Virus record (IMG/VR): IMGVR_UViG_3300030419_005118
Location: 1 to 40,994 of that record
Reading direction: 5' to 3' (one strand)
Length of the DNA stretch: 40,994 nt
Source of the DNA: a virus
How positions within the stretch are numbered: position 1 is the stretch's first letter; each line of letters opens with the position of its first letter. Position numbers and translations under genes: made by a program. Below, one piece after another: positions 1 through 29,797 of the stretch. A model generated the notes under the pieces. That model made no database searches and was not told where the DNA came from. It saw only the letters and a list, made by a program, of their open reading frames with translations.

Positions 1-154
1 CCCCCCAGCCGATAGGGTTGCTCTCAGAATTCCATAAAATTTTGTACTCTGCCAAGCGTCCAAGGGTGGCGCCCCTACACTCCAGAATAAGTCCGATGCA
101 TCGAAAGCCATTTCTCAAATCCTGCTTTGCATAAACGAGGTCACCGACTTTCAC
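1..154 (-). CDS. VGDLV-family small protein, 3' part beyond window
   Basis: First 51 codons of a gene that runs off the left edge. It starts with GTG behind a strong GGAGGT and opens MKVGDLVYAK. The rest keeps the family pattern of two hydrophobic strands (CIGLILE and YKILW), but the residues between them are not conserved. Its first 14 bases also encode the last codons of the gene upstream. Function is unknown. A small SH3-like barrel is my inference from the VGDLV...GLIxE...VLW pattern. Confidence 0.75.
   Translation of the reverse strand, partial: MKVGDLVYAKQDLRNGFRCIGLILECRGATLGRLAEYKILWNSESNPIGWG
141..154. repeat. Dual-coding junction repeat of the VGDLV array
   Basis: The 14 bases GTGAAAGTCGGTGA or near-identical ones recur at 319-332, 497-510 and 678-691. 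In each place they are read twice: as (S)ESR-stop of one gene (ASR in one case) and as MKVGDL or MQVGDL of the next. Flanking bases (GAGGT, ATCA) are also shared and give the ribosome binding site. Confidence 0.88.
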
Positions 155-332
155 TGATAACCTCCAGATAACAACTCCACTCGTATGTGATACTGCCGTC
201 AGACCACAGCACGTGCATACGGGTCTGGCCATGCTTCGGATTTTGCACTTCCATAATTATTCCGTAGCTGGGGTAATCGCGTTGCATCACCCACGCTTTG
301 GTTTCAATTTTCACCAAATCACCGACTTGCAC
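141..332 (-). CDS. VGDLV-family small protein (63 aa)
   Basis: Starts with GTG preceded by GGAGGTAATCA. The protein opens MQVGDLVKIE, has central strands YGIIMEV and MHVLWSDGS, and ends LEVISESR. The C-terminus is encoded by the same bases that carry the Shine-Dalgarno sequence and first codons of the next gene, a 14-base overlap. It is one of six consecutive paralogues. No catalytic residues are apparent and the function is unknown. Confidence 0.85.
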   Translation of the reverse strand: MQVGDLVKIETKAWVMQRDYPSYGIIMEVQNPKHGQTRMHVLWSDGSITYEWSCYLEVISESR

Positions 333-510
333 TGATTACCTCCATTTGATGTCGTAAAAAATCATGTGGTTTAAGTTGCCATCGTGAATCAAATAGTTTT
401 ACCGAATAATGTTTAATGCGATACCCGCTTGTGTGGTCGCGAATATCCAATATCATGCCCACTGGCCAACCGTCCACGCCCGTTACTCTTACCAAATCAC
501 CGACTTTCAC
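319..510 (-). CDS. VGDLV-family small protein (63 aa)
   Basis: The GTG start follows GGAGGTGGTTA. A longer reading frame exists upstream, but it would run through the neighbouring gene, so the family start (MKVGDLVRVTGVDGW) is preferred. The core GMILDIRD and the end MEVISASR match the paralogues on either side. It overlaps both neighbours by 14 bases. Function is unknown. Confidence 0.85.
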   Translation of the reverse strand: MKVGDLVRVTGVDGWPVGMILDIRDHTSGYRIKHYSVKLFDSRWQLKPHDFLRHQMEVISASR

Positions 511-691
511 TAACCACCTCCAGTTCTCGCGACTTCTCGGTGTTCCAGTACCGCTTGCCTTTGTATGACCACAGGACTTTAATATCCTTGCGCCCAACGT
601 AAACGCCAACCTCGATAACAAGGCCGACATGCCGTGGAACGGGTGCCCACTTCTGATGTTCATTAAATCTTACCAAATCACCGACTTTCAC
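497..691 (-). CDS. VGDLV-family small protein (64 aa)
   Basis: GTG start after GAGGTAATCA. The protein opens MKVGDLVRFNEHQKW, has strands VGLVIEVG and IKVLWSYKG, and ends LEVVSESR. The middle is quite unlike the adjacent paralogues although both ends are almost identical, which suggests old duplication with the ends conserved or homogenised. Function is unknown. Confidence 0.85.
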   Translation of the reverse strand: MKVGDLVRFNEHQKWAPVPRHVGLVIEVGVYVGRKDIKVLWSYKGKRYWNTEKSRELEVVSESR

Positions 692-854
692 TGATTACCT
701 CAATAAGACCCCGTTGGATCTTTCTAACGCTGCCATCATCCCACAAGATGAAAGGTGTTTTGCTTTCAGTGTGCGCCCACGATTTGATTTCTACAATGAT
801 TCCCATCATTCCGCGCTCTGAATATATGTGTCGCACCAAATCACCGACTTTCAT
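678..854 (-). CDS. VGDLV-family small protein (58 aa)
   Basis: A 58-codon gene, read directly from the sequence. It starts with ATG, opens MKVGDLVRHIYSERG, contains MMGIIVEIKSW and FILWDDGSV, and ends GLIEVISESR. The start overlaps the stop of the upstream gene by 4 bases (ATGA), and the 3' end overlaps the next paralogue by 14 bases. This member uses ATG because its upstream junction does not need to encode the ESR ending. Confidence 0.85.
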   Translation of the reverse strand: MKVGDLVRHIYSERGMMGIIVEIKSWAHTESKTPFILWDDGSVRKIQRGLIEVISESR

Positions 855-1012
855 TTGACTACCTCATAATCTGCTGCGCTCTGCCATCCATCGCGACCCA
901 GCACCTTAATCCACTCCTTAATCGTGGGCTCCGCAAACTCCGTTACGAGAAATGCCTTATTGAAGTTTCTGGTTGTAGGACGCTTTAGTTTAACCAAATC
1001 ACCGACTTTCAT
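851..1012 (-). CDS. VGDLV-family small protein (53 aa)
   Basis: Opens MKVGDLVKLKRPTTR and ends DYEVVK, with strands AFLVTEF and IKVLGRDG. Its ATG overlaps the preceding stop (TGATG) and its stop overlaps the next ATG (ATGA), so translation is probably coupled. It is the first member of the tandem array in the direction of transcription. It lacks the ISESR ending, so its junction differs from the four that follow. Function is unknown. Confidence 0.82.
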   Translation of the reverse strand: MKVGDLVKLKRPTTRNFNKAFLVTEFAEPTIKEWIKVLGRDGWQSAADYEVVK

Positions 1013-1422
1013 CAAAATTCAATGCTCCTGCTCACGTATACATCCCAAAATGCGCTGCCACGCTGCTCGGTATCTTCCAAGTCCTCACCGACGCGAACAA
1101 ACTTATAGCACTCGTCGCCATCTACGTGAGTGACTGGGGTGGGGCTCTTATCCTGCGCTTTCTGCTCGTCGGACACGGGCACCTGTTCGCCGTCGCACCA
1201 GTCGAGGAAGTCTTCGATGGCAGCGATGCCTTCATACGAAGTATACCACTTGATGCCATTCCACGCGAATAGCATATTTCCCTTGCCATCATAATCTTTA
1301 ACCATACGGTCGTGGTCGCCCCAACAGAGAGCACGCGCTTGCGGCGACTTTGCCATCGTGACCATAAACTGAGGCATGACTTCTTTACCAACGACGAGAA
1401 CGACCTCTGAACGATAACCCAT
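1012..1422 (-). CDS. Phage protein of the MGYRSEV type (136 aa)
   Basis: Opens MGYRSEVVLVVGKE, an N-terminus I recognise from uncharacterised phage proteins. The middle (ALCWGDHDRM, FAWNGIKWYTSYEG) is rich in aromatic residues and looks like a compact alpha/beta domain. The acidic C-terminal third contains ECYKFVRVGED. It starts at ATG behind AAAGGAGAG and is the first gene after a TTGAAT-16-CGTCTA promoter, so it probably leads the VGDLV operon. No catalytic motif was identified. Confidence 0.8.
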   Translation of the reverse strand: MGYRSEVVLVVGKEVMPQFMVTMAKSPQARALCWGDHDRMVKDYDGKGNMLFAWNGIKWYTSYEGIAAIEDFLDWCDGEQVPVSDEQKAQDKSPTPVTHVDGDECYKFVRVGEDLEDTEQRGSAFWDVYVSRSIEF

Positions 1423-1497: not shown

Positions 1498-1671
1498 TCA
1501 AGGCGTGCAAACACCAGCATCAATCAGGGATTTCGCCATTCGTCCAAACGCGCCTTGCAGCGTCCAGGCTAACCCGGTGTCGATTAGGTGCTGCCATGCC
1601 TCGATGATTCTCTCCTCGTCATCGCAATCAACAAACCCTTCTGCAATTCCAACTGCTTCGTAATCATCCAT
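1498..1671 (-). CDS. Small phage protein with LIDTGLAWTLQG motif (57 aa)
   Basis: Opens MDDYEAVGIAEGF, followed by an acidic stretch (DCDDEER), then AWQHLIDTGLAWTLQG and FGRMAKSLIDAGVC. This pattern is a recurrent tiny phage protein, which I believe is catalogued as DUF7417 (not checked). Its function is unknown. The ATG follows GGAGAAATTAAATA and overlaps the upstream gene by 8 bases. It is the last gene before promoter copy A. Confidence 0.85.
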   Translation of the reverse strand: MDDYEAVGIAEGFVDCDDEERIIEAWQHLIDTGLAWTLQGAFGRMAKSLIDAGVCTP

Positions 1672-1870
1672 TATTTAATTTCTCCATGTCACCTTTTTCA
1701 ACTCTAAAAATTTTTCCATCGACAAGAACTTTGTAATAACTCATATAATAAAAGTCTCCATCTTTTCCATGCTTCATTAGGTCAGACCTTTTATCTCGTC
1801 CGACGATGAGCCCAATTCTTTCTCCGACGCCCTCCAAAATTCGGACACGAACCAAATCACCCACCTTCAT
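1664..1870 (-). CDS. VGDLV-family protein (68 aa), detached copy
   Basis: The longer frame upstream overlaps a tiny membrane-peptide gene, so I start at the family N-terminus MKVGDLVRVRILEG. The protein has ERIGLIVGRD, KVLVDGKIFRVEK and ends MEKLNNG. The ATG overlaps the upstream stop (TGATG) and has no strong ribosome binding site, so translation is probably coupled. It is a paralogue of the array at 1-1012 but separated from it by two other genes. Confidence 0.8.
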   Translation of the reverse strand: MKVGDLVRVRILEGVGERIGLIVGRDKRSDLMKHGKDGDFYYMSYYKVLVDGKIFRVEKGDMEKLNNG

Positions 1871-2733: not shown

Positions 2734-2943
2734 TTAAACTTTTTTGCTAATCGACTTTGAACCACCGGAAAGAAGTTTTAGCTCATCGTTCTGAACCCAC
2801 CATGTCATGCCGTTGTGGATTGTGCGAATCCTGCACTGTTTCCACTGAGCCTCAATGACAATAGCGAGCGATTTATATCTCTTGTCTGGAGAAATATAAT
2901 AAAAGTCTTTTAGTGCGACGAGATCCCCCTCTTCAAGAATCAT
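2734..2943 (-). CDS. Divergent GDLV-type small protein (69 aa)
   Basis: Opens MILEEGDLVALKDFYYISPD, close in layout to the VGDLV family. It then has SLAIVIEAQW and a terminal strand TWWVQNDELKLLSGG with a basic tail. The ATG overlaps the upstream gene by 11 bases. Probably a remote paralogue of the left-end array, based only on the GDLV and I-V-I-E pattern. Function is unknown. Confidence 0.72.
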   Translation of the reverse strand: MILEEGDLVALKDFYYISPDKRYKSLAIVIEAQWKQCRIRTIHNGMTWWVQNDELKLLSGGSKSISKKV

Positions 2944-3202
2944 TCATAGCCTCTGCGATGTCCTGTAGCGTCACAGGCTTCGGCTTCTTTCTCTGTGCCT
3001 TCATTAGCTTATTGTATTTTGATGCCTTATGCTCGTTGACAAAAACATTTTCGATACCCATGCTCTCGTACCTCTGAGCGGCATATTTCGCAGCCCTAAA
3101 GTTGCTGGGTTTTGTGAGAACTCGCTCCGTTGCCACAAATCGTGGCTCGCCATTGTCCCGGTCACCGGGTCGAATATCAATCTTGCTTATGTAATACTTC
3201 AC
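2933..3202 (-). CDS. Hypothetical protein (89 aa)
   Basis: GTG start after GGAGGTTATAA, overlapping the upstream VGDLV gene by 26 bases. The N-terminal half looks like a beta-alpha unit (YYISKIDIRPGDRDNG, FVATERVLTKPSNF, AAKYAAQRYESMG). The C-terminal half is basic (KLMKAQRKKPKP) and ends in a short helix (LQDIAEAMNDS). No recognised family. Confidence 0.75.
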   Translation of the reverse strand: MKYYISKIDIRPGDRDNGEPRFVATERVLTKPSNFRAAKYAAQRYESMGIENVFVNEHKASKYNKLMKAQRKKPKPVTLQDIAEAMNDS

Positions 3203-3374
3203 TTATAACCTCCACTTCATCTTCATAGACGCTGATTTCTCCATTATAACCTTGCATACGCACAATCAGTTCATGCGGTAGCACATCATCACGCACCTCG
3301 ACAACCAAAACCAAGTTGTCCATACCTCCGTGATGTTCTGGATTTAGTCTCACCAAATCGCCAACCTTAATCAT
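3177..3374 (-). CDS. VGDLV-family protein (65 aa), detached copy
   Basis: I use the ATG giving MIKVGDLVRLNPEHHGG, which follows GAGGAGGGG and overlaps the preceding stop. The core LVLVVEVRDD and the ending VEVISEVLHKQD match the array at the left edge. Here the EVIS bases again carry the ribosome binding site of the next gene, but that gene is not a family member. The shared junction is therefore older than, or independent of, the tandem array. Confidence 0.82.
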   Translation of the reverse strand: MIKVGDLVRLNPEHHGGMDNLVLVVEVRDDVLPHELIVRMQGYNGEISVYEDEVEVISEVLHKQD

Positions 3375-3957
3375 TAAGCCCCTCCTCATATTTATTGAGC
3401 GTGTCTATAAAAATCTGCCACTTCTTAGATGCAAAGAGTTTTTCTCTTTGGTCGAGGACATGCAGGATTCTTTCCTTCAACCTGTTGGACAAATCAACTC
3501 TTCTCAACAGGTCGTTGTAAGTCAGAGAGCACTTGACAAACTGATTCGCGTTCGATGAAAGAAACTGATAGTTTGTCAGACAATCCTTGCCACCAGCATT
3601 TGTCGGATGAACGTGGTCGATTTCGTAAATAATGTTTTTAATTTTCCAGTTGCAGTAGTTCCCACCGGGCCGGTTCCAAACACCATTTAGTTCGGAGGGC
3701 GCAACGTGGAGCCAGTGCGTGCAGCGATAATCCTGAGTTTCAAGAATCATATCGACATACTGCCTGACAAGTGCCCTACTCTGCTTTCGCTTGGCCTCGT
3801 TGTGCTTTCCTCGCGCCTTGTAGTTTTGCCACACGTTGTTAAATCCGCAGACCCGAAACCTGCCTCGCATGCGCTCACACAGACTTTCAATCTCTTTCGC
3901 GGTTGCCTGTGAATTTTGGTCAACCATTTCGATGTGTTCATTCAGCGTTACTTTCAT
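3367..3957 (-). CDS. Putative HNH endonuclease (196 aa)
   Basis: The C-terminal half carries an HNH-like core: IIYEIDHVHPTNAGGKD, then LTNYQFLSSNANQFVKCSLT. The DH pair and following Asn residues sit where metal-binding and catalytic residues are expected. The N-terminal half is helical and basic (HNEAKRKQSRALVRQYVD) and could bind DNA. The start MKVTLNEH is chosen for the GGGGGGGA just before it. It may be a free-standing homing-type nuclease or a phage recombination nuclease. No inserted target is visible nearby. Confidence 0.65.
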   Translation of the reverse strand: MKVTLNEHIEMVDQNSQATAKEIESLCERMRGRFRVCGFNNVWQNYKARGKHNEAKRKQSRALVRQYVDMILETQDYRCTHWLHVAPSELNGVWNRPGGNYCNWKIKNIIYEIDHVHPTNAGGKDCLTNYQFLSSNANQFVKCSLTYNDLLRRVDLSNRLKERILHVLDQREKLFASKKWQIFIDTLNKYEEGLND

Positions 3958-4153
3958 TCCCCCCCCAAGAGTAGCGAGCATCACACTCGCCATATTTATA
4001 TTTTATAAAGACGTGCCTTCTTTCTTGCTTTGTCAACTCCACATCGTTGCCGTTTTCGTCAATGGAGTTATACAAAAAGTCATCGAACACTTGGACGAAT
4101 ATCGTTTCATCCGGCGACCGTTCGATAACCACAATCAGCGGTTCCCTGTTCAC
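3938..4153 (-). CDS. Hypothetical protein (71 aa)
   Basis: GTG start overlapping the upstream stop (GTGA). The sequence is acidic with one beta-rich stretch: PLIVVIERSPDETIFVQVFD, then VELTKQERRHVFIKYKYG. Second gene after promoter copy B. Not recognised. Confidence 0.7.
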   Translation of the reverse strand: MNREPLIVVIERSPDETIFVQVFDDFLYNSIDENGNDVELTKQERRHVFIKYKYGECDARYSWGGNESNAE

Positions 4154-10246: not shown

Positions 10247-10543
10247 TTATCCTCTCAATAATTGTTTTGCACCGGTTCTCAATTGACCCTCTACCACGTC
10301 TGGTGACCCAACAACAACCAAGTCTAGACCGGTGGATCCACGATTCAATTGAACCCTGGTGAACCTCTGGCGATCGTCCAGTCCCTCGGGTAGCTTGCCT
10401 TCTTGAAGAAGTCGCGAAGTGAATATATCTTCGCGCAGGCAAACAACGTGCTCTGGATTGATATACACTTCTCTTAGTGTATATGCTGAATTTTTTATAA
10501 CATTAGAACTTTTTGATACTTCTATCAAGCGAATAGTCGCCAT
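10247..10543 (-). CDS. Conserved phage protein (98 aa)
   Basis: I start at MATIRLIEVSKSSNVIKN behind ACGGAG. The body YTLREVYINPEHVVCLREDI, RLLQEGKLPEGLDDRQRFTR and LDLVVVGSPDVVEGQL matches an uncharacterised family I have met in large phages. The first half (REVYINPEHVVCLRE) resembles the small FlbD-like fold, but that is weak. Immediately precedes the glutaredoxin gene. Confidence 0.82.
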   Translation of the reverse strand: MATIRLIEVSKSSNVIKNSAYTLREVYINPEHVVCLREDIFTSRLLQEGKLPEGLDDRQRFTRVQLNRGSTGLDLVVVGSPDVVEGQLRTGAKQLLRG

Positions 10544-10790
10544 TTTTAACTCCGTTTTCTTCGTTATCGACCGTAAATAAGTCACTTGGTTTTGCAGACC
10601 ATGTTTGGCCTCTAAATAATACCTCACATGCGAAAACAAATTTGCTCTTTTTTAATTCAGAATTTAGAACAAGAACGTATTGTGGTTCCGTCGTTGTAAA
10701 ATAATTACTGACCCCTCCATCGTCGTTGTACTGAACTAGGGATACGTCGGATGGAACATAGGCTAAGTCCCCAGGTTGAAAATCTTTCAT
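10503..10790 (-). CDS. GDL-type small protein (95 aa)
   Basis: Opens MKDFQPGDLAYVPSDVSLVQ, then TEPQYVLVLNSELK and ACEVLFRGQTWSAKPSDLFTV. The layout of an N-terminal PGDL, a hydrophobic strand, and a terminal strand holding W and DLF resembles the VGDLV proteins, and may be a distant relative. ATG follows GGAGG. It overlaps the downstream gene by 41 bases. Confidence 0.75.
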   Translation of the reverse strand: MKDFQPGDLAYVPSDVSLVQYNDDGGVSNYFTTTEPQYVLVLNSELKKSKFVFACEVLFRGQTWSAKPSDLFTVDNEENGVKNGDYSLDRSIKKF

Positions 10791-11435: not shown

Positions 11436-13013
11436 TTATACTCCGATAATAGCATGATTAGTGGTAATTAAAGTACCGGCGACCGACACCGCGTTTGAGA
11501 GGGCGGTGCCCGTTACCTTGACAGGATCAACGATTCCGGCCTCAAACATATCGCATTGTTCACTGTTGTAAAAACAATAGCCCTCGGTATCGCCTAGGCT
11601 CTCAACTAACGATTCGATTAAGTCGGGAGACAGGCCAGCGTTCAAGGCCATTTGTCGGAGCGGAGAACGAACAGCATGCTGTACTATACTAGCTCCCATA
11701 GCCTGATCGTCATTGTCGGCGTCGATGGTCAACTCTTTGCCGGCACGGATCAGTGCAACGCCTCCACCGGGCACAATGCCTTCGATTTGAGCAGAGCGCA
11801 CCGCCTCCAAAGCATCTTCGATTCTATGCTTTTTCTCGACCATTTCAATTTCAGTCGGTGCACCGACGCGAATGACTGCGATGCCACTAGCTAGGCGCGT
11901 AACTCTTTCCTGTATCCTCTCGCAATCATGCATGGACTCGGTAGATTTTAATTGATCCTTTAAGGTTTCAATACGTTGATCGACCAACTCATAATCAGCG
12001 TTACCTCCAACAACGGTTGTAGAAGTTTTTGTGCATTCGATAACCTTAGCAGATCCAAGATCCTCTAGCTTGGTTTCGTGCGCCTTCATGCCAGACTCGC
12101 GGGAGACAAACGTGGCGTTCACAGCGATGGCCAAGTCTTGCAAAATATTTCTTCGCTCCTCTCCATAGCGGGGAGCTTTGATAGCGGCAACCTTCAATGT
12201 CCCGCGCATCGCATTCATAATCATGGCCGCAAGTGCTTGATTTTCAATTTCTTCTGCGACTAAAACAAAAGGTCTTCCCTCTCTTGCAATAACTTCCAAA
12301 ATAGGCAGGATTTGCTCGACGGTCGAGATTGTATGGTCGGTTACCATGATCAACGGCTCGTCATAACGCATTATTCCTCGGCGCTCGTCAGTGATGAACG
12401 CAGTGGCACGATAGCCGGAATCAAAAATAAAACCCTCGGTAATGTCAAGAGAGGTTTCAGAAGATCGCGCTTCCTCAATTGTAATAGCGCCATCTTTTCC
12501 GACGCGATCAACTGCCATGGCAATCAAGCTGCCGATGCTCTTATCGTTGTTGGCAGAAATGGTCGCAACGTGGGCAATATCCTCCTCGCTGGTGATTGGC
12601 GTTGCTAGTTCTTTCAAATTGTCAATAACCGCTTCAGAAGCCTTGTCAATCCCTCGCTTGAGTTCAATCGGGCTAGCACCAGCAGTAAGGTATTTCTGAG
12701 CCTGCGTCAATATAGCTCGTGCCAAAACTGTTGATGTTGTTGTGCCGTCACCGGCAATATTATTTGTTTGTGTTGCTGCTTGTTTGATAATTTGGACACC
12801 AGCATTCATAAACGGATCGTCTAAATGAACGAATTGGGCCACGGTAACGCCGTCCTTTGTAATAATTGGGCTCTTACCTTTTTCTTGTAATATTACATTG
12901 CGCCCTTTCGGACCCAATGTTGATGCAACGTTATCCGCAAGGACATTAACGCCGTCAATAATCTTTTGATTCAGCGATGAATCTGAATCAAAACGCATTT
13001 TTAAGTCTGACAA
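11436..13013 (-). CDS. groEL: GroEL-like chaperonin (525 aa)
   Basis: Full-length group I chaperonin. The ATP site is intact: TLGPKGRNVIL, ITKDGVTVAQ with the conserved Asp, AGDGTTTSTVLARAIL, and RIEDALEAVRSAQIEGIVPGGG with the hydrolytic Asp. The apical domain shows YRATAFITDERRG and FVLVAEEIENQALAAMIMN. The Gly-Met-rich tail of host GroEL is missing, and the protein ends AIIGV. It probably folds phage capsid or replication proteins with the co-chaperonin encoded at 27310-27606. TTG start behind AGAGGTGTAAA. A sigma70-like promoter lies directly upstream, so it may be expressed early by host polymerase. Confidence 0.97.
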   Translation of the reverse strand: MSDLKMRFDSDSSLNQKIIDGVNVLADNVASTLGPKGRNVILQEKGKSPIITKDGVTVAQFVHLDDPFMNAGVQIIKQAATQTNNIAGDGTTTSTVLARAILTQAQKYLTAGASPIELKRGIDKASEAVIDNLKELATPITSEEDIAHVATISANNDKSIGSLIAMAVDRVGKDGAITIEEARSSETSLDITEGFIFDSGYRATAFITDERRGIMRYDEPLIMVTDHTISTVEQILPILEVIAREGRPFVLVAEEIENQALAAMIMNAMRGTLKVAAIKAPRYGEERRNILQDLAIAVNATFVSRESGMKAHETKLEDLGSAKVIECTKTSTTVVGGNADYELVDQRIETLKDQLKSTESMHDCERIQERVTRLASGIAVIRVGAPTEIEMVEKKHRIEDALEAVRSAQIEGIVPGGGVALIRAGKELTIDADNDDQAMGASIVQHAVRSPLRQMALNAGLSPDLIESLVESLGDTEGYCFYNSEQCDMFEAGIVDPVKVTGTALSNAVSVAGTLITTNHAIIGV

Positions 13014-15298: not shown

Positions 15299-15952
15299 CT
15301 ATATAATTAGGTCAGCGATGCCCAATTTTACCGCTTCTTCGGCACTTAAATACACGTTTACTTTTTTTTCTAACATTTTTTTCAATTGTCTGGTAGTCAT
15401 ATTTGTTTCATCGACAAGAGCCTTAATATATTGCTCTTGAATATATCTTACTTCTTCCATTTCATTTTCAAGATTGTGCAGCGATCCCGCGTACCCTCCG
15501 ACTGCGCTGTGAATCATGACGCGGCAATTTCGTCCGATTTCTCTCTGACCTTTTGTGCCGGCGGCCAACAGCAAGACGCCGGCTGACATGACCTTGCCAA
15601 GCCCTCGGGTAATAATATCACAATCCTTCTTCACGTTACGCATAACATCGTAGATGCCAAACATTTCTTCGGCGGATCCACCATGCGTAGATAAAATAAA
15701 TTGTATCGGATTGACCACCTTGACAATCTCTGAGTTGGGATCGCTCGGATCTGATAGTTGCTCCACCTCTCGTGACCGATGGAAGTGCATTAGCGAGTAA
15801 ATTGCTTCTGATGACTTCTCTTCATTGATGTCGCCAACGATGCCGAATGCGCGAAATTCATCATCGCCTTTCTCATCCGATCCAACTAGGATAAATGTTT
15901 TGTTGTCGTCCACCTTCTCATCTACACTATCAGTAAATTTTTTCGGTTTCAC
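15299..15952 (-). CDS. ClpP-family protease with Asn at the triad Asp position (217 aa)
   Basis: S14 fold. It has FILSTHGGSAEEMFGIYDVM (oxyanion region), GKVMSAGVLLLAAG with the catalytic Ser near residue 122, and RVMIHSAVGGYAG with His near 146. By alignment to the ERDRFLSAPEAV region of E. coli ClpP, the third residue of the triad falls on the N of KVNVYLSAEEAVKLG. A charged 25-residue N-terminal extension precedes the fold. It could assemble with the second ClpP of this phage or act as a capsid-maturation protease. GTG start behind GGAGAAATA. Confidence 0.88.
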   Translation of the reverse strand: MKPKKFTDSVDEKVDDNKTFILVGSDEKGDDEFRAFGIVGDINEEKSSEAIYSLMHFHRSREVEQLSDPSDPNSEIVKVVNPIQFILSTHGGSAEEMFGIYDVMRNVKKDCDIITRGLGKVMSAGVLLLAAGTKGQREIGRNCRVMIHSAVGGYAGSLHNLENEMEEVRYIQEQYIKALVDETNMTTRQLKKMLEKKVNVYLSAEEAVKLGIADLII

Positions 15953-19728: not shown

Positions 19729-19984
19729 TAGATGCACCCGCGCTACGGGCCTTAGCTAGCAGGCTATACATATCGTACAGGTCATCGAGGTCATCCCCCG
19801 CTCGCATGAGTCGATATGCCTTAACTGCTACTCGAATCTCGTCGCGAGAAAGCCAGCCCTTATCTTGATACTCCTTGCGAAGTTCGCGGCGCTGCTCCTT
19901 AAATGGCTCCATCGCATCCTCCAGGGCCTTGATTGACTTAATATACTCGACAATCATAAGTTCCTTTTCATTTTGTTCGTTCAT
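19718..19984 (-). CDS. Helical phage protein (88 aa)
   Basis: A long charged helix (YIKSIKALEDAMEPFKEQRRELRKEYQ, split by no glycine) is followed by WLSRDEIRVAVKAYRLMR and an acidic helix (DDLDDLYDMYSLLAKARS). The arrangement resembles small GapR/DUF2312-like DNA-binding proteins, but the match is by pattern only. ATG follows GGAGGCATAA. It overlaps both neighbours by 11-17 bases. Confidence 0.75.
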   Translation of the reverse strand: MNEQNEKELMIVEYIKSIKALEDAMEPFKEQRRELRKEYQDKGWLSRDEIRVAVKAYRLMRAGDDLDDLYDMYSLLAKARSAGASNAT

Positions 19985-20177
19985 TTATGCCTCCTTTGAC
20001 ATGTTGTATAAATGAGTAGTGAAATTTCTGAACGCGGTCCACAAGCTTGACACCATAAACTGTAGCATTCTCGTTAATTGATATGATGATGCCAATATTG
20101 TGTTTCGACAAAGGCTCATCGAATGCTACTCTAACTAAGTCGCCAATTTTGTATACTGCGTGATGATCTATATTCAT
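19968..20177 (-). CDS. VGDLV-like protein, distant copy (69 aa)
   Basis: Contains YKIGDLVRVAFDEPLSKHNI, then GIIISINENATVYGVKLVD, the same order of elements as the left-end family. It has an extra N-terminal MNIDHHAV and the tail FIQHVKGGINERTK. The ATG lies inside the TATAAT of a consensus sigma70 promoter, so a transcript from that promoter would lack it. It must then be read from upstream transcripts. No clear ribosome binding site. Confidence 0.7.
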   Translation of the reverse strand: MNIDHHAVYKIGDLVRVAFDEPLSKHNIGIIISINENATVYGVKLVDRVQKFHYSFIQHVKGGINERTK

Positions 20178-20204
20178 TATAGCTGTTCGAAGCAACTCTG
20201 TCAA
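20176..20204 (-). promoter_or_regulatory. Perfect-consensus sigma70 promoter
   Basis: TTGACA at 20204-20199, 17 bases, TATAAT at 20181-20176 on the minus strand, matching the E. coli consensus at all twelve positions with ideal spacing. It lies just downstream of the second clpP. The start of transcription would fall near 20169, inside the next reading frame, so its main products would be the dUTPase and IMPDH genes. Confidence 0.75.
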
Positions 20205-20207
20205 GGA

Positions 20208-20810
20208 TTATTCGAAATTAAAATCAACTTTAACATCAAAAGAAAACTTAGGCACGCGCAACTGGTTAGCTAGCTTATGCTTCATGCACTCGTCTGCATC
20301 GAGAAACCAATCGGCATGACCCTTTTCATGAACAATTTTCAAGAAATAGTCTTCCTTCTTTCCGCAATTCCTTGCCATCATCTTATAAACAATTTTATTG
20401 AGACGGTCAGTCTCCTCGGCACTAGCTTTGATCTCCTCAACCTTGCCTCGATCCATCGATGACACATCGTGAATCATAACTGTGGCATTGGGATCCATAA
20501 AGCGCATGTCCTTTGCCCCAAAAGAGAATAAAATAGCGCCGCACGACATCGCCTTGCCTTCAACAATTGTGGCAATAGGCAACTCTGAGTGTTCAATCTC
20601 TGATATCATCGCCATCAGCGAATACACTTGCCCACCATATGAATCAATAACGATTGGAATGACAGGTTGGCCTGTGTTGTGAGCATCGCTCATTTTCTCA
20701 GAAAATTCTTGAGCGGATTTTTCATCAAACTTGTTAACACGAATAATAACAGGCGTTCGACGTAGTTCAATTTTATGAAGTAGTGGATCTTTTGTATATG
20801 TAATCTTCAT
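20208..20810 (-). CDS. ClpP-family protease with complete triad (200 aa)
   Basis: S14 fold. IVIDSYGGQVYSLMAMISEI is the oxyanion region, EGKAMSCGAILFSFGAKD holds the catalytic Ser near residue 89, and ATVMIHDVSSMDRGK holds His near 112. GHADWFLDADECMKHKLA places an Asp near 167 at the third position. The handle region AEETDRLNKIVYKMMARNCG is normal. Overlaps the polymerase gene by 4 bases (ATGA). A regulatory protease or prohead protease are both possible, and no Clp ATPase is in the window. Confidence 0.9.
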   Translation of the reverse strand: MKITYTKDPLLHKIELRRTPVIIRVNKFDEKSAQEFSEKMSDAHNTGQPVIPIVIDSYGGQVYSLMAMISEIEHSELPIATIVEGKAMSCGAILFSFGAKDMRFMDPNATVMIHDVSSMDRGKVEEIKASAEETDRLNKIVYKMMARNCGKKEDYFLKIVHEKGHADWFLDADECMKHKLANQLRVPKFSFDVKVDFNFE

Positions 20811-27823: not shown

Positions 27824-29797
27824 TCATAAAGTACATGTATCACCATCACAAAACTTCGTTCCCGCTCCTGCTGAATCTGTTTGAATTTTTGTTATCGGTT
27901 TAATATTTTTAATTAATTCTTCATATCTTTCTTTTGTGATCGGTTCATATGGAGCCTGAACATATCCGGTTTCTTGATATCTCAAAAAGGAGACTGCTTT
28001 CAATCTAGTTTCGTACATTTCAAGCGCATCCTTAATTTGCTCTGCCTCTTCTGGCTTAAATGTTACAGTGATGGAAACAGAGTTGTCTGCCCAATAGTGT
28101 TGATACTGTGCAGCGATCTCAAGCTGTTCCCATATTGATATATCTTTTTTGCCTTTTATGAAATGCTCTTCATGAATCGGAAAGTCAACGCAAACCGTAT
28201 TTGGTGAATAGCTGTCATCTTCAACATTATACCCGTTTTGAACCAAGATTTTAACTAATTCTGAATTTTTAGAGAATCTTACGCGTCGGATATAATACTC
28301 ATCTTCCGGGAAATGAATGCCTGGAGTTGAGCCATTTAGCAGCGAAACGGTGCCTGATGGTTTGATGCTGGTCATGCGAACGGATCGAGGAACGCAGAGC
28401 CAATCAGAATATTCCTGATCTAGTTGCTGTACGTGTCCGTATGCCATATCGCACCATTTAAACATTTCTCGACGGCCGTGCTTGTTAAACGCCTGTACAA
28501 CGCCAGACTGCGACAGGCCGATGCGACGATTCTTAAGCATAATCGCATTTGTTTCAGGCCAGTGGGTATTAACAAGCGTCACCGTTTTTCCATATAGATA
28601 GGCAATCTTCAATGTTCTCAAATAATCTTCGTATGAGTCGTGCTTTGCCGGGAATGTTTCCACCAGACAGCAAAGCTCTGCGTCTTCTAGTTGCTGCTCA
28701 ACACAGGGATTGAAGCCCATGACGTTCTTGTCATCGTCTCTTGGCTCATCCTTGAACCTGCCACGTGTTTTGGCATTTTCAAGCCAAATATATCCTGGCT
28801 CACCATTCGCCTGACTCTGTTTCGCATGCCATTCATAATCCATGCCAACCTTTGCAATAAAAGAATTGTTCGAGCCCCATCGATGATGATAAAGTTTTTC
28901 CTCATCGTTCTTCATGCTGAGATAGTCCATATCATCATGGTCGCCAAGAGCTAGTGCGGCACTGCGACGGACATTTCCCGCCACAACGCAACGACCAATA
29001 AGATTCTCGGTGTCAACAATATCGACCGAAGTGATTGCTTCGCCAATCTTTGAGCCATATAAGTCAATCAAATTTTGGTGAAGTTCCATTAGCGGCTTGG
29101 GGCCACTAGATGTACCACCAAAGCCGCGAATAGCAGCGCCGGCGGGACGAATAAGTGAATAGTCAAATTTAGGCACCTTAGATCCGAAAAAATAACCATC
29201 AAGCATGATCCTAACAGACTCTACCCAACCCTCTCGGGAATCAGGAATCTTATAACTATCTTCCAACCACTGCGGTTCTTTAATTTTAGTGGTGCCGGCG
29301 CCTTTCGTATCAAACCCAACACCAATGCCGACCATCAATGCGTCCATCATCCAAGCAAACAAGTATCCACCTTTGGATGAGATCTCCTTGGTGGAGCGAA
29401 AGGCGCAATTGAAAAGACCAGCACCCGTCTTCTCCTGCAAAAACTGAGTACCCATCATCCACAGGCCGCGGCCAGGGGGTGTCCACTTTAAGTTGAAAAG
29501 CCTATCGTATGCTTCTTTTGCTGTTCTTTGTGCTTTAGCGTCATTCCACTCTAAGCCTAGGCGGGCAACATGTTGCTTCTGAATATTAAACATGCCCTCA
29601 ATAACGCGGCGGCATGTCTGATACCACTCCTCAGTACCACCAACGTCTGGATCAAACTCACTTAACCGGCGAGCATATGTTCTCTTAAACGTGATGTACC
29701 CCATGGGGCCCCATGGCACATCCTCATCTCTATATTGGTCAATAAAAACTTCTGACAGGCGAAAGCGTCTTACCGCTGATGTTTCTTCTTTATACAT
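27824..29797 (-). CDS. nrdJ: Monomeric class II (adenosylcobalamin-dependent) ribonucleotide reductase (657 aa)
   Basis: Reduces ribonucleotides to deoxyribonucleotides using a cobalamin-derived radical. Recognisable parts are LKWTPPGRGLWMMGTQFLQE, LFNCAFRSTKEIS (first redox Cys), VGIGVGFDTKG, NVRRSAALALGDHDD, and GFNPCVEQQLEDAELCCLVE with the radical-site Cys and Glu near residue 363. SIKPSGTVSLLNGSTPGIH follows, and the C-terminal redox pair is CDGDTCTL. The single-chain length and layout match the Lactobacillus leichmannii type. Needs host or environmental B12. The glutaredoxin at 9958-10245 may regenerate it. Confidence 0.95.
   Translation of the reverse strand: MYKEETSAVRRFRLSEVFIDQYRDEDVPWGPMGYITFKRTYARRLSEFDPDVGGTEEWYQTCRRVIEGMFNIQKQHVARLGLEWNDAKAQRTAKEAYDRLFNLKWTPPGRGLWMMGTQFLQEKTGAGLFNCAFRSTKEISSKGGYLFAWMMDALMVGIGVGFDTKGAGTTKIKEPQWLEDSYKIPDSREGWVESVRIMLDGYFFGSKVPKFDYSLIRPAGAAIRGFGGTSSGPKPLMELHQNLIDLYGSKIGEAITSVDIVDTENLIGRCVVAGNVRRSAALALGDHDDMDYLSMKNDEEKLYHHRWGSNNSFIAKVGMDYEWHAKQSQANGEPGYIWLENAKTRGRFKDEPRDDDKNVMGFNPCVEQQLEDAELCCLVETFPAKHDSYEDYLRTLKIAYLYGKTVTLVNTHWPETNAIMLKNRRIGLSQSGVVQAFNKHGRREMFKWCDMAYGHVQQLDQEYSDWLCVPRSVRMTSIKPSGTVSLLNGSTPGIHFPEDEYYIRRVRFSKNSELVKILVQNGYNVEDDSYSPNTVCVDFPIHEEHFIKGKKDISIWEQLEIAAQYQHYWADNSVSITVTFKPEEAEQIKDALEMYETRLKAVSFLRYQETGYVQAPYEPITKERYEELIKNIKPITKIQTDSAGAGTKFCDGDTCTL

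Follow-up and report, generated by a model that had tools for sequence, protein, structure and literature searches.

How can a phage keep a row of small, mutually dissimilar genes in working order while the membership of that row changes from one relative to the next? This question is raised by the left end of a fragment of IMG/VR virus contig IMGVR_UViG_3300030419_005118 (the window, all 40,994 bases of the stretch analyzed). Six small adjoining GDLV genes, here termed cassettes A to F, lie there on the minus strand between positions 1 and 1012, and cassette F crosses the contig edge. An initial annotation had described these genes as paralogues linked by dual-coding junctions at which members could be gained or lost by recombination. 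We favor, with a probability of roughly three in four, the explanation that the row is one of the arrays in which large marine phages shuffle interchangeable small-gene cassettes.

Four junctions in the window (B/C, C/D, D/E, and E/F) are read in two frames over 14 nucleotides (nt), just as the initial annotation had stated. The same 14 bases had been claimed for all of them; three carry GTGAAAGTCGGTGA, while D/E carries GTGCAAGTCGGTGA and is read as ASR-stop and MQVGDL. In GTGAAAGTCGGTGA, the upstream frame, beginning one base earlier, gives S-E-S-R-stop and the downstream frame gives M-K-V-G-D. Directly 5' of the overlap, TGGAGGTNATCA does double duty as ribosome-binding site and as the codons for E-V-I-S. 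Across the starts with a 14-nt overlap, this stretch is TGGAGGT(A/T)ATCA or a near variant, codes for EV(I/V)S, and doubles as the ribosome-binding site, as had been read from the EVIS codons. The KVGDLV start attributed to all six proteins was found in five, with QVGDLV in cassette E. A junction 19-mer occurs seven times in the window at three or fewer mismatches, where shuffled sequences are expected to give 0. At the head of the row, the ATG of cassette A shares 1 nt with the TGA stop of the gene at 1012-1422 (TGATG).

The arrangement is widespread, well beyond the window. The pattern AGTGAAAGTNGGTGAYYTNGT was found in at least 120 IMG/VR stretches and further loci were retrieved through the flanking gene at 1012-1422; about 1,150 genes in the collected marine viral loci matched the family profile. 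Among 662 adjacent family pairs, the overlap was exactly 14 nt in 557 and 4 nt in 68, compared with a 14-nt overlap in 6 of 890 ordinary same-strand neighbors in the same loci. Bias from the junction search is limited because the 14-nt overlap was also present in 30 of 36 pairs from loci retrieved by the flanking gene alone and at 370 of 472 junctions outside the search pattern. It recurs in more than 100 contig stretches, the longest rows comprise 11 genes, and 19 contigs of 159-281 kb hold 7-28 family members apiece. In 18 of these large contigs the junction motif lies on a single strand; in the exception, G011, 9 of 10 sites do so. The reversed control pattern had zero occurrences in the same 19 contigs.

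At the 557 junctions of 14 nt, those of the window included, GTG follows Ser AGT in 350 cases, ATG follows Asn AAT in 165 and Asp GAT in 19, and ATG also occurs after His or Tyr. The upstream residue fixes the start codon of the next cassette, and the earlier statement that GTG is required for the double use is therefore wrong. An E-S-R-like tail was found in 92% of proteins with a 14-nt follower, in 0 of 68 with a 4-nt follower, and in 16% of those without a family follower. When the same cassette is internal in one row and last in another, its tail changes accordingly (44 pairs). Homologues of cassette D are internal in locus L128 and terminal in L126 (LEVVR), L127 (LEVVK), and L130 (LEIVK), and the homologue of cassette F is the last cassette of L128 and ends without ESR. 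The C-terminal tail belongs to the neighbor's start, a warning that short tails such as ESR can be by-products of the next gene.

Codon usage at the joint is biased as well. The Glu codon before the last Val is GAG or GAA in a ratio of 329:8 in cassettes with a follower, 24:16 in last cassettes, and 1171:1451 in gene bodies; as the GAG excess occurs only with a follower, the ribosome-binding site is under selection at the DNA level. GTC accounts for the Val codon of the start motif at 79% of 14-nt starts and at 67% of starts without an upstream family member, compared with 20% of Val codons in gene bodies. GTA would suit both frames equally well (V and R), yet it is rare at the joint, and this preference favors a DNA-level role of the joint.

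The bodies between the joints diverge, as had been noted for the window: identity between unrelated cassettes is 90% across the 14-nt overlap and 27% across the body. At 50-90% identity, homologous cassettes kept a homologous downstream neighbor in 14 of 208 cases, while ordinary genes of equal identity did so in 295 of 620, both counts referring to locus pairs that are not independent. More than one neighbor context was found in 53 of 57 clusters of homologous cassettes occurring in at least three loci, and comparison of locus pairs revealed 20 clean indels, each spanning one to three cassettes. The sharpest case separates L014 and L016, from two metagenomes, which agree over about 11 kb, with 99.5% identity across 8,388 bases and 100% across another 2,609. 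All that interrupts the match is a 157-nt cassette flanked on either side by ATGAAAGTCGGTGATTTGGT, a perfect 20-nt repeat that is the gene start.

Breakpoints were mapped from identity profiles on either side of the joint. Homologous cassettes with different upstream neighbors share 0.84 identity at +14 to +21 and 0.78 or more beyond (0.78 past +30), and drop to the level of unrelated cassettes at -13 to -1 (0.66 vs 0.65). Where the same upstream cassette has different followers, identity is 0.86 at -13 to -1 and reaches the unrelated level (0.30) after +21. The switch of partner therefore falls between the start of the overlap and the seventh base past it, and the ribosome-binding stretch travels with the upstream cassette.

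The window and L128 are collinear over about 10 kb at 76-82% DNA identity, with a median backbone synonymous divergence (dS) of 1.3 when saturated genes are entered as infinite. Beside the same flanking gene, the row is A-B-C-D-E-F in the window and E'-X-D'-F' in L128. Between the two, dS is 0.37 for D and 0.16 for F, values that are rough given about 28-31 synonymous sites per cassette, and E is at least as old as the backbone. By these values, D and F were exchanged with the L128 lineage more recently than the backbone split. Cassette C and its homologue in L130 differ by a dS of 0.60 and a nonsynonymous divergence (dN) of 0.14. Copy number and order thus vary among relatives, and the proposed gain and loss of members at the junctions is supported, with exchange between lineages in place of multiplication on the spot.

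In the array, the codons for the last beta strand (L-E-V-I-S/N) also serve as ribosome-binding site for the gene that follows, and the final residues and stop (E-S-R-stop) are the out-of-frame reading of its start (M-K-V-G-D). Any cassette could then follow any other with neither gene broken. Because the same short joint lies between unrelated genes and leaves both frames intact, a crossover or template switch could delete, insert, reorder, or import a cassette with the neighbors unharmed. Translation of the row is probably coupled through the overlaps; the sequence signature, a Shine-Dalgarno sequence inside the upstream gene, is present. Joining may proceed by short-homology recombination, through a phage pathway of the RecA/UvsX type, or by template switching during replication, with no site-specific recombinase involved. 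A RecA-like protein is encoded in 19 of 19 large contigs, and RecT was not found in them. Short-homology recombination or template switching, aided by selection for frame, is compatible with the data, which do not separate targeted from filtered exchange. A bolder version, which we regard as evenly poised between right and wrong, is an integrase-free cassette system: the family's own gene ends would form a universal, frame-preserving recombination joint, each joint supplying stop, ribosome-binding site, and start together, and large marine phages would draw small binders from a global pool and rearrange them as an operon.

Several points weigh against a shuffling array. Exact joint homology between unrelated cassettes of one locus has a median of 11 nt, reaching at least 14 nt in 34% and at least 20 nt in 8%, so classical homologous recombination would be inefficient. 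Joint identity is 0.779 within contigs and 0.764 between them, a difference too small to indicate strong homogenization, and gene conversion of the joints was found to be weak. Only one near-identical contig pair captures a single event, and the contigs are all metagenomic.

The rival that survives best, though we consider it unlikely, is that the joint is conserved for translation only, while exchange is illegitimate and random and selection filters the breakpoints. These would look targeted because only exchanges at the joint leave two working genes. The confinement of the GAG bias to cassettes with a follower fits this account, as do the missing homogenization and a common homology mostly below 20 nt. 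In PMC3029335, illegitimate exchange is favored for most mosaic boundaries of mycobacteriophages, which also counts in its favor. It is opposed by the GTC bias, which affects positions not fully constrained by either frame, and by the position of the sole fresh event on a perfect 20-nt repeat.

That an integron-like site-specific recombinase moves the cassettes is improbable. Such an enzyme would agree with a cassette array of one orientation with a short common joint and pool-like content, and integrons likewise consist of one-orientation rows of small genes with a large shared pool and little redundancy. However, no tyrosine (PF00589) or serine recombinase domains were found in the 19 large contigs, whose records are possibly incomplete. 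At the four window joints, folding does not exceed that of shuffled sequence (z from -1.4 to +1.9), with no consistent stem-loop. The array differs from integrons in having neither the integrase IntI nor an attC-like hairpin, and in that its joint is coding.

Ordinary local tandem duplication followed by divergence would account for the fold, start motif, and single orientation common to all members, but as the origin of the row it is highly improbable and already contradicted by the comparisons. Only 1 of 662 neighboring pairs is detectably homologous in the body, and homologous pairs within a contig number 12 where random draw predicts 8.4. Homologues instead occur in other phages and contexts, as the 53 of 57 clusters attest. 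The rows resemble random draws from a shared pool, which points to exchange between phage lineages and not to in-place multiplication. An assembly artefact, in which repeats mislead assemblers into false rows and indels, has next to no credibility even with metagenomic contigs and a window that ends inside a row, since the repeats of at most 20 nt are shorter than reads, the arrangement recurs in more than 100 stretches, diverged orthologous rows too show clean cassette indels, and the frames remain open under constraint.

The proteins are under purifying selection, with a median dN/dS of 0.18 between homologous cassette bodies and none above 1. AlphaFold models of cassettes E and D (predicted local distance difference test, pLDDT, 88 and 91, respectively) are each a five-stranded small barrel, in keeping with the SH3-like fold suggested earlier. 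Foldseek matched them to the KOW domain of eS4, PetP, YorP, HspQ, and PWWP and Tudor domains with template modelling (TM) scores of 0.6-0.72, all weakly; E-values of 0.01-0.2 therefore indicate a fold class and not a family. The family profile weakly matches uL24 (E 0.007) and the NusG KOW domain (E 0.016), and the best matches in a viral structure library include several proteins of neighboring accessions. No family was assigned with confidence by Pfam or PHROG searches. None of 55 members scanned passed a curated Pfam cut-off; the best score, HAS-barrel at 2.3e-4 in one member, was sub-threshold. The proteins, of about 60 residues, are predicted SH3/KOW-like barrels. They share this predicted fold with uL24, NusG, eS4, HspQ, PetP, and YorP; with no Pfam family above cut-off, function is not transferable.

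Predicted isoelectric points span 4.4 to 9.8 between the 10th and 90th percentiles, too wide a spread for nucleic-acid binding to be a general property. A role as DfrB-like dihydrofolate reductase was rejected, the VQIY motif of strand B4 (VQ[IV]Y) occurring in 1 of about 1,150 members. The proteins may act as condition-specific binders. A role in host takeover or counter-defense is tentatively the best fit to a pool of small binders that are swappable, conserved, and non-redundant. HspQ is a Lon specificity factor, and the resemblance to it is no more than a lead.

Among described systems, several are comparable in part. The promoter/stem-loop (PeSL) cassettes of T4-type phages, attributed to Arbiol 2010 and Comeau 2014 and cited in PMC4503421, reportedly have short repeats at gene borders, to which the shuffling of small accessory genes within a plastic region is ascribed. 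Repeated short border DNA, small accessory genes, and large phages are common to both. In the array, similarity also switches at short shared sequence at gene borders, both in the breakpoint mapping and in the 20-nt-repeat event, and small accessory genes are shuffled at repeated borders. The PeSL repeat is reportedly an intergenic promoter-terminator, whereas the array joint is 14 coding bases in two frames with the ribosome-binding site inside the upstream gene; no intergenic promoter with stem-loop terminator was found, the genes overlapping by 14 nt with no intergenic DNA and no consistent stem-loop.

In the lambdoid model, as discussed in PMC3029335, modules are exchanged by general recombination at short shared sequences at gene borders. 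The array is alike in this border exchange and differs in that a whole gene family, spread over many phages, uses a single boundary sequence that also encodes part of its proteins. Coupled overlapping genes have a stop/start overlap with an intragenic Shine-Dalgarno sequence, and PMC6728339 and PMC3887535 report experimental coupling for 4-nt overlaps. Published overlaps are 4 nt in 45% and 1 nt in 15% (PMC3887535), while the array is dominated by 14 nt, recurring between non-homologous neighbors. The ORFanage of cyanophage S-PM2, a row of small ORFans thought to be shuffled and with synteny seldom conserved (PMC4503421), was considered as a known case and found unrelated, with no GDLV members and no common joint. 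No published description of the motif or of such arrays was found in the searchable literature, a scope that did not extend to subscription papers or the two PeSL papers. The arrangement is boundary-sequence shuffling, with a boundary made of the genes' own coding ends.

With one boundary sequence common to hundreds of marine-phage gene pairs, coding on both sides and visibly used as a breakpoint, the question can be tested in a small synthetic construct. The arrangement represents one solution for swapping genes while operons stay intact, and it draws attention to a large, unannotated family of phage proteins with a predicted SH3-like fold.

Table 1. Cassettes, junctions, and related genes in the window (aa, amino acids; E, family-profile E-value).
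Feature	Position	Strand	Description
Cassette A	851..1012	-	ATG start, 53 aa, C-terminal EVVK, first of array; E 2.7e-6
Cassette B	678..854	-	ATG start, 58 aa, C-terminal EVISESR; E 3e-20
Cassette C	497..691	-	GTG start, 64 aa, C-terminal EVVSESR; homologue L130:6733-6924
Cassette D	319..510	-	GTG start, 63 aa, C-terminal EVISASR (MEVISASR)
Cassette E	141..332	-	GTG start, 63 aa, VQVGDLV, C-terminal EVISESR
Cassette F	1..154, continues past base 1	-	GTG start, contig edge cuts gene
A/B junction	851..854	-	ATGA overlap, 4 nt
B/C junction	678..691	-	14-nt overlap GTGAAAGTCGGTGA, ESR-stop / MKVGD
C/D junction	497..510	-	14-nt overlap GTGAAAGTCGGTGA
D/E junction	319..332	-	14-nt overlap GTGCAAGTCGGTGA, ASR-stop / MQVGDL
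E/F junction	141..154	-	14-nt overlap GTGAAAGTCGGTGA
Flanking gene MGYRSEV...	1012..1422	-	Anchor for junction-independent retrieval of relatives
Stand-alone GDLV relative	1664..1870	-	ATG at 1870; E 5.7e-8
Stand-alone GDLV relative MILEEGDLV	2734..2943	-	E 5.7e-4
Stand-alone GDLV relative MIKVGDLV	3177..3374	-	E 1.1e-6
Stand-alone GDLV relative	19968..20204	-	E 1.8e-6

Of the five further relatives that the initial annotation had listed, those at 1664, 2734, 3177, and 19968 match the family profile (E 6e-8 to 6e-4), and the gene at 10503-10790 (QPGDLAYV) does not.

The joint apparently can also dock the family behind unrelated genes. At 563 start sites the 14 nt also end an upstream open reading frame (ORF) of at least 40 aa; this partner matches the family profile in 497 and does not in 63. 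Some of these 63 are chance ORFs and others resemble real genes, including ClpP-like (L093) and zinc-finger-like (L010, L080) partners and small conserved proteins (L012, L014, L016). The upstream ORFs at L010:1927 and L080:2732 have a CxC...C..H zinc-finger-like (SWIM-like) C-terminal motif whose last codons are the 14-nt joint. At L041:3454-3573, a KVGDLVK leader is fused to a hydrophobic, membrane-like peptide, as though the joint had captured foreign coding DNA. Decayed cassettes were found at L009:2197 and L101:995.

BLAST of the region and its cassettes against cultured phage genomes detected no relative. In bacterial and archaeal genomes the junction pattern occurred in 35 stretches, mostly unrelated VKVGD coding sequence. 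Multiple family members were present there only at L171, L180, and L189/L192, all records of metagenome-assembled genomes (MAGs). L189 and L192 (CP070664.1) belong to a 2.8-Mb MAG 'chromosome' labelled candidate division WOR-3 that holds GDLV cassettes with the 14-nt joint; this reflects either phage integration or the mis-joining of a phage contig.

Elsewhere in the window, an HNH endonuclease-like ORF lies a few genes upstream of the row at 3367-3993 (phrog_2214, E 2e-4), and a phage-encoded GroEL chaperonin at 11436-13013 (phrog_5725, E 1e-140). Two separate ORFs resembling ClpP or head-maturation proteases occupy 15299-15952 and 20208-20810. The ribonucleotide reductase at 27827-29797 has its best cultured match at about 46% (mycobacteriophage Gaia), so the phage has no close cultured relative. 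Between 31378 and 40599, many minus-strand ORFs (starts 34812, 35534, 36135, 36803, 37351, 39474, and 40599) have a common MKLLFENWRKF-like N-terminal leader, which is possibly a capsid or virion targeting tag.
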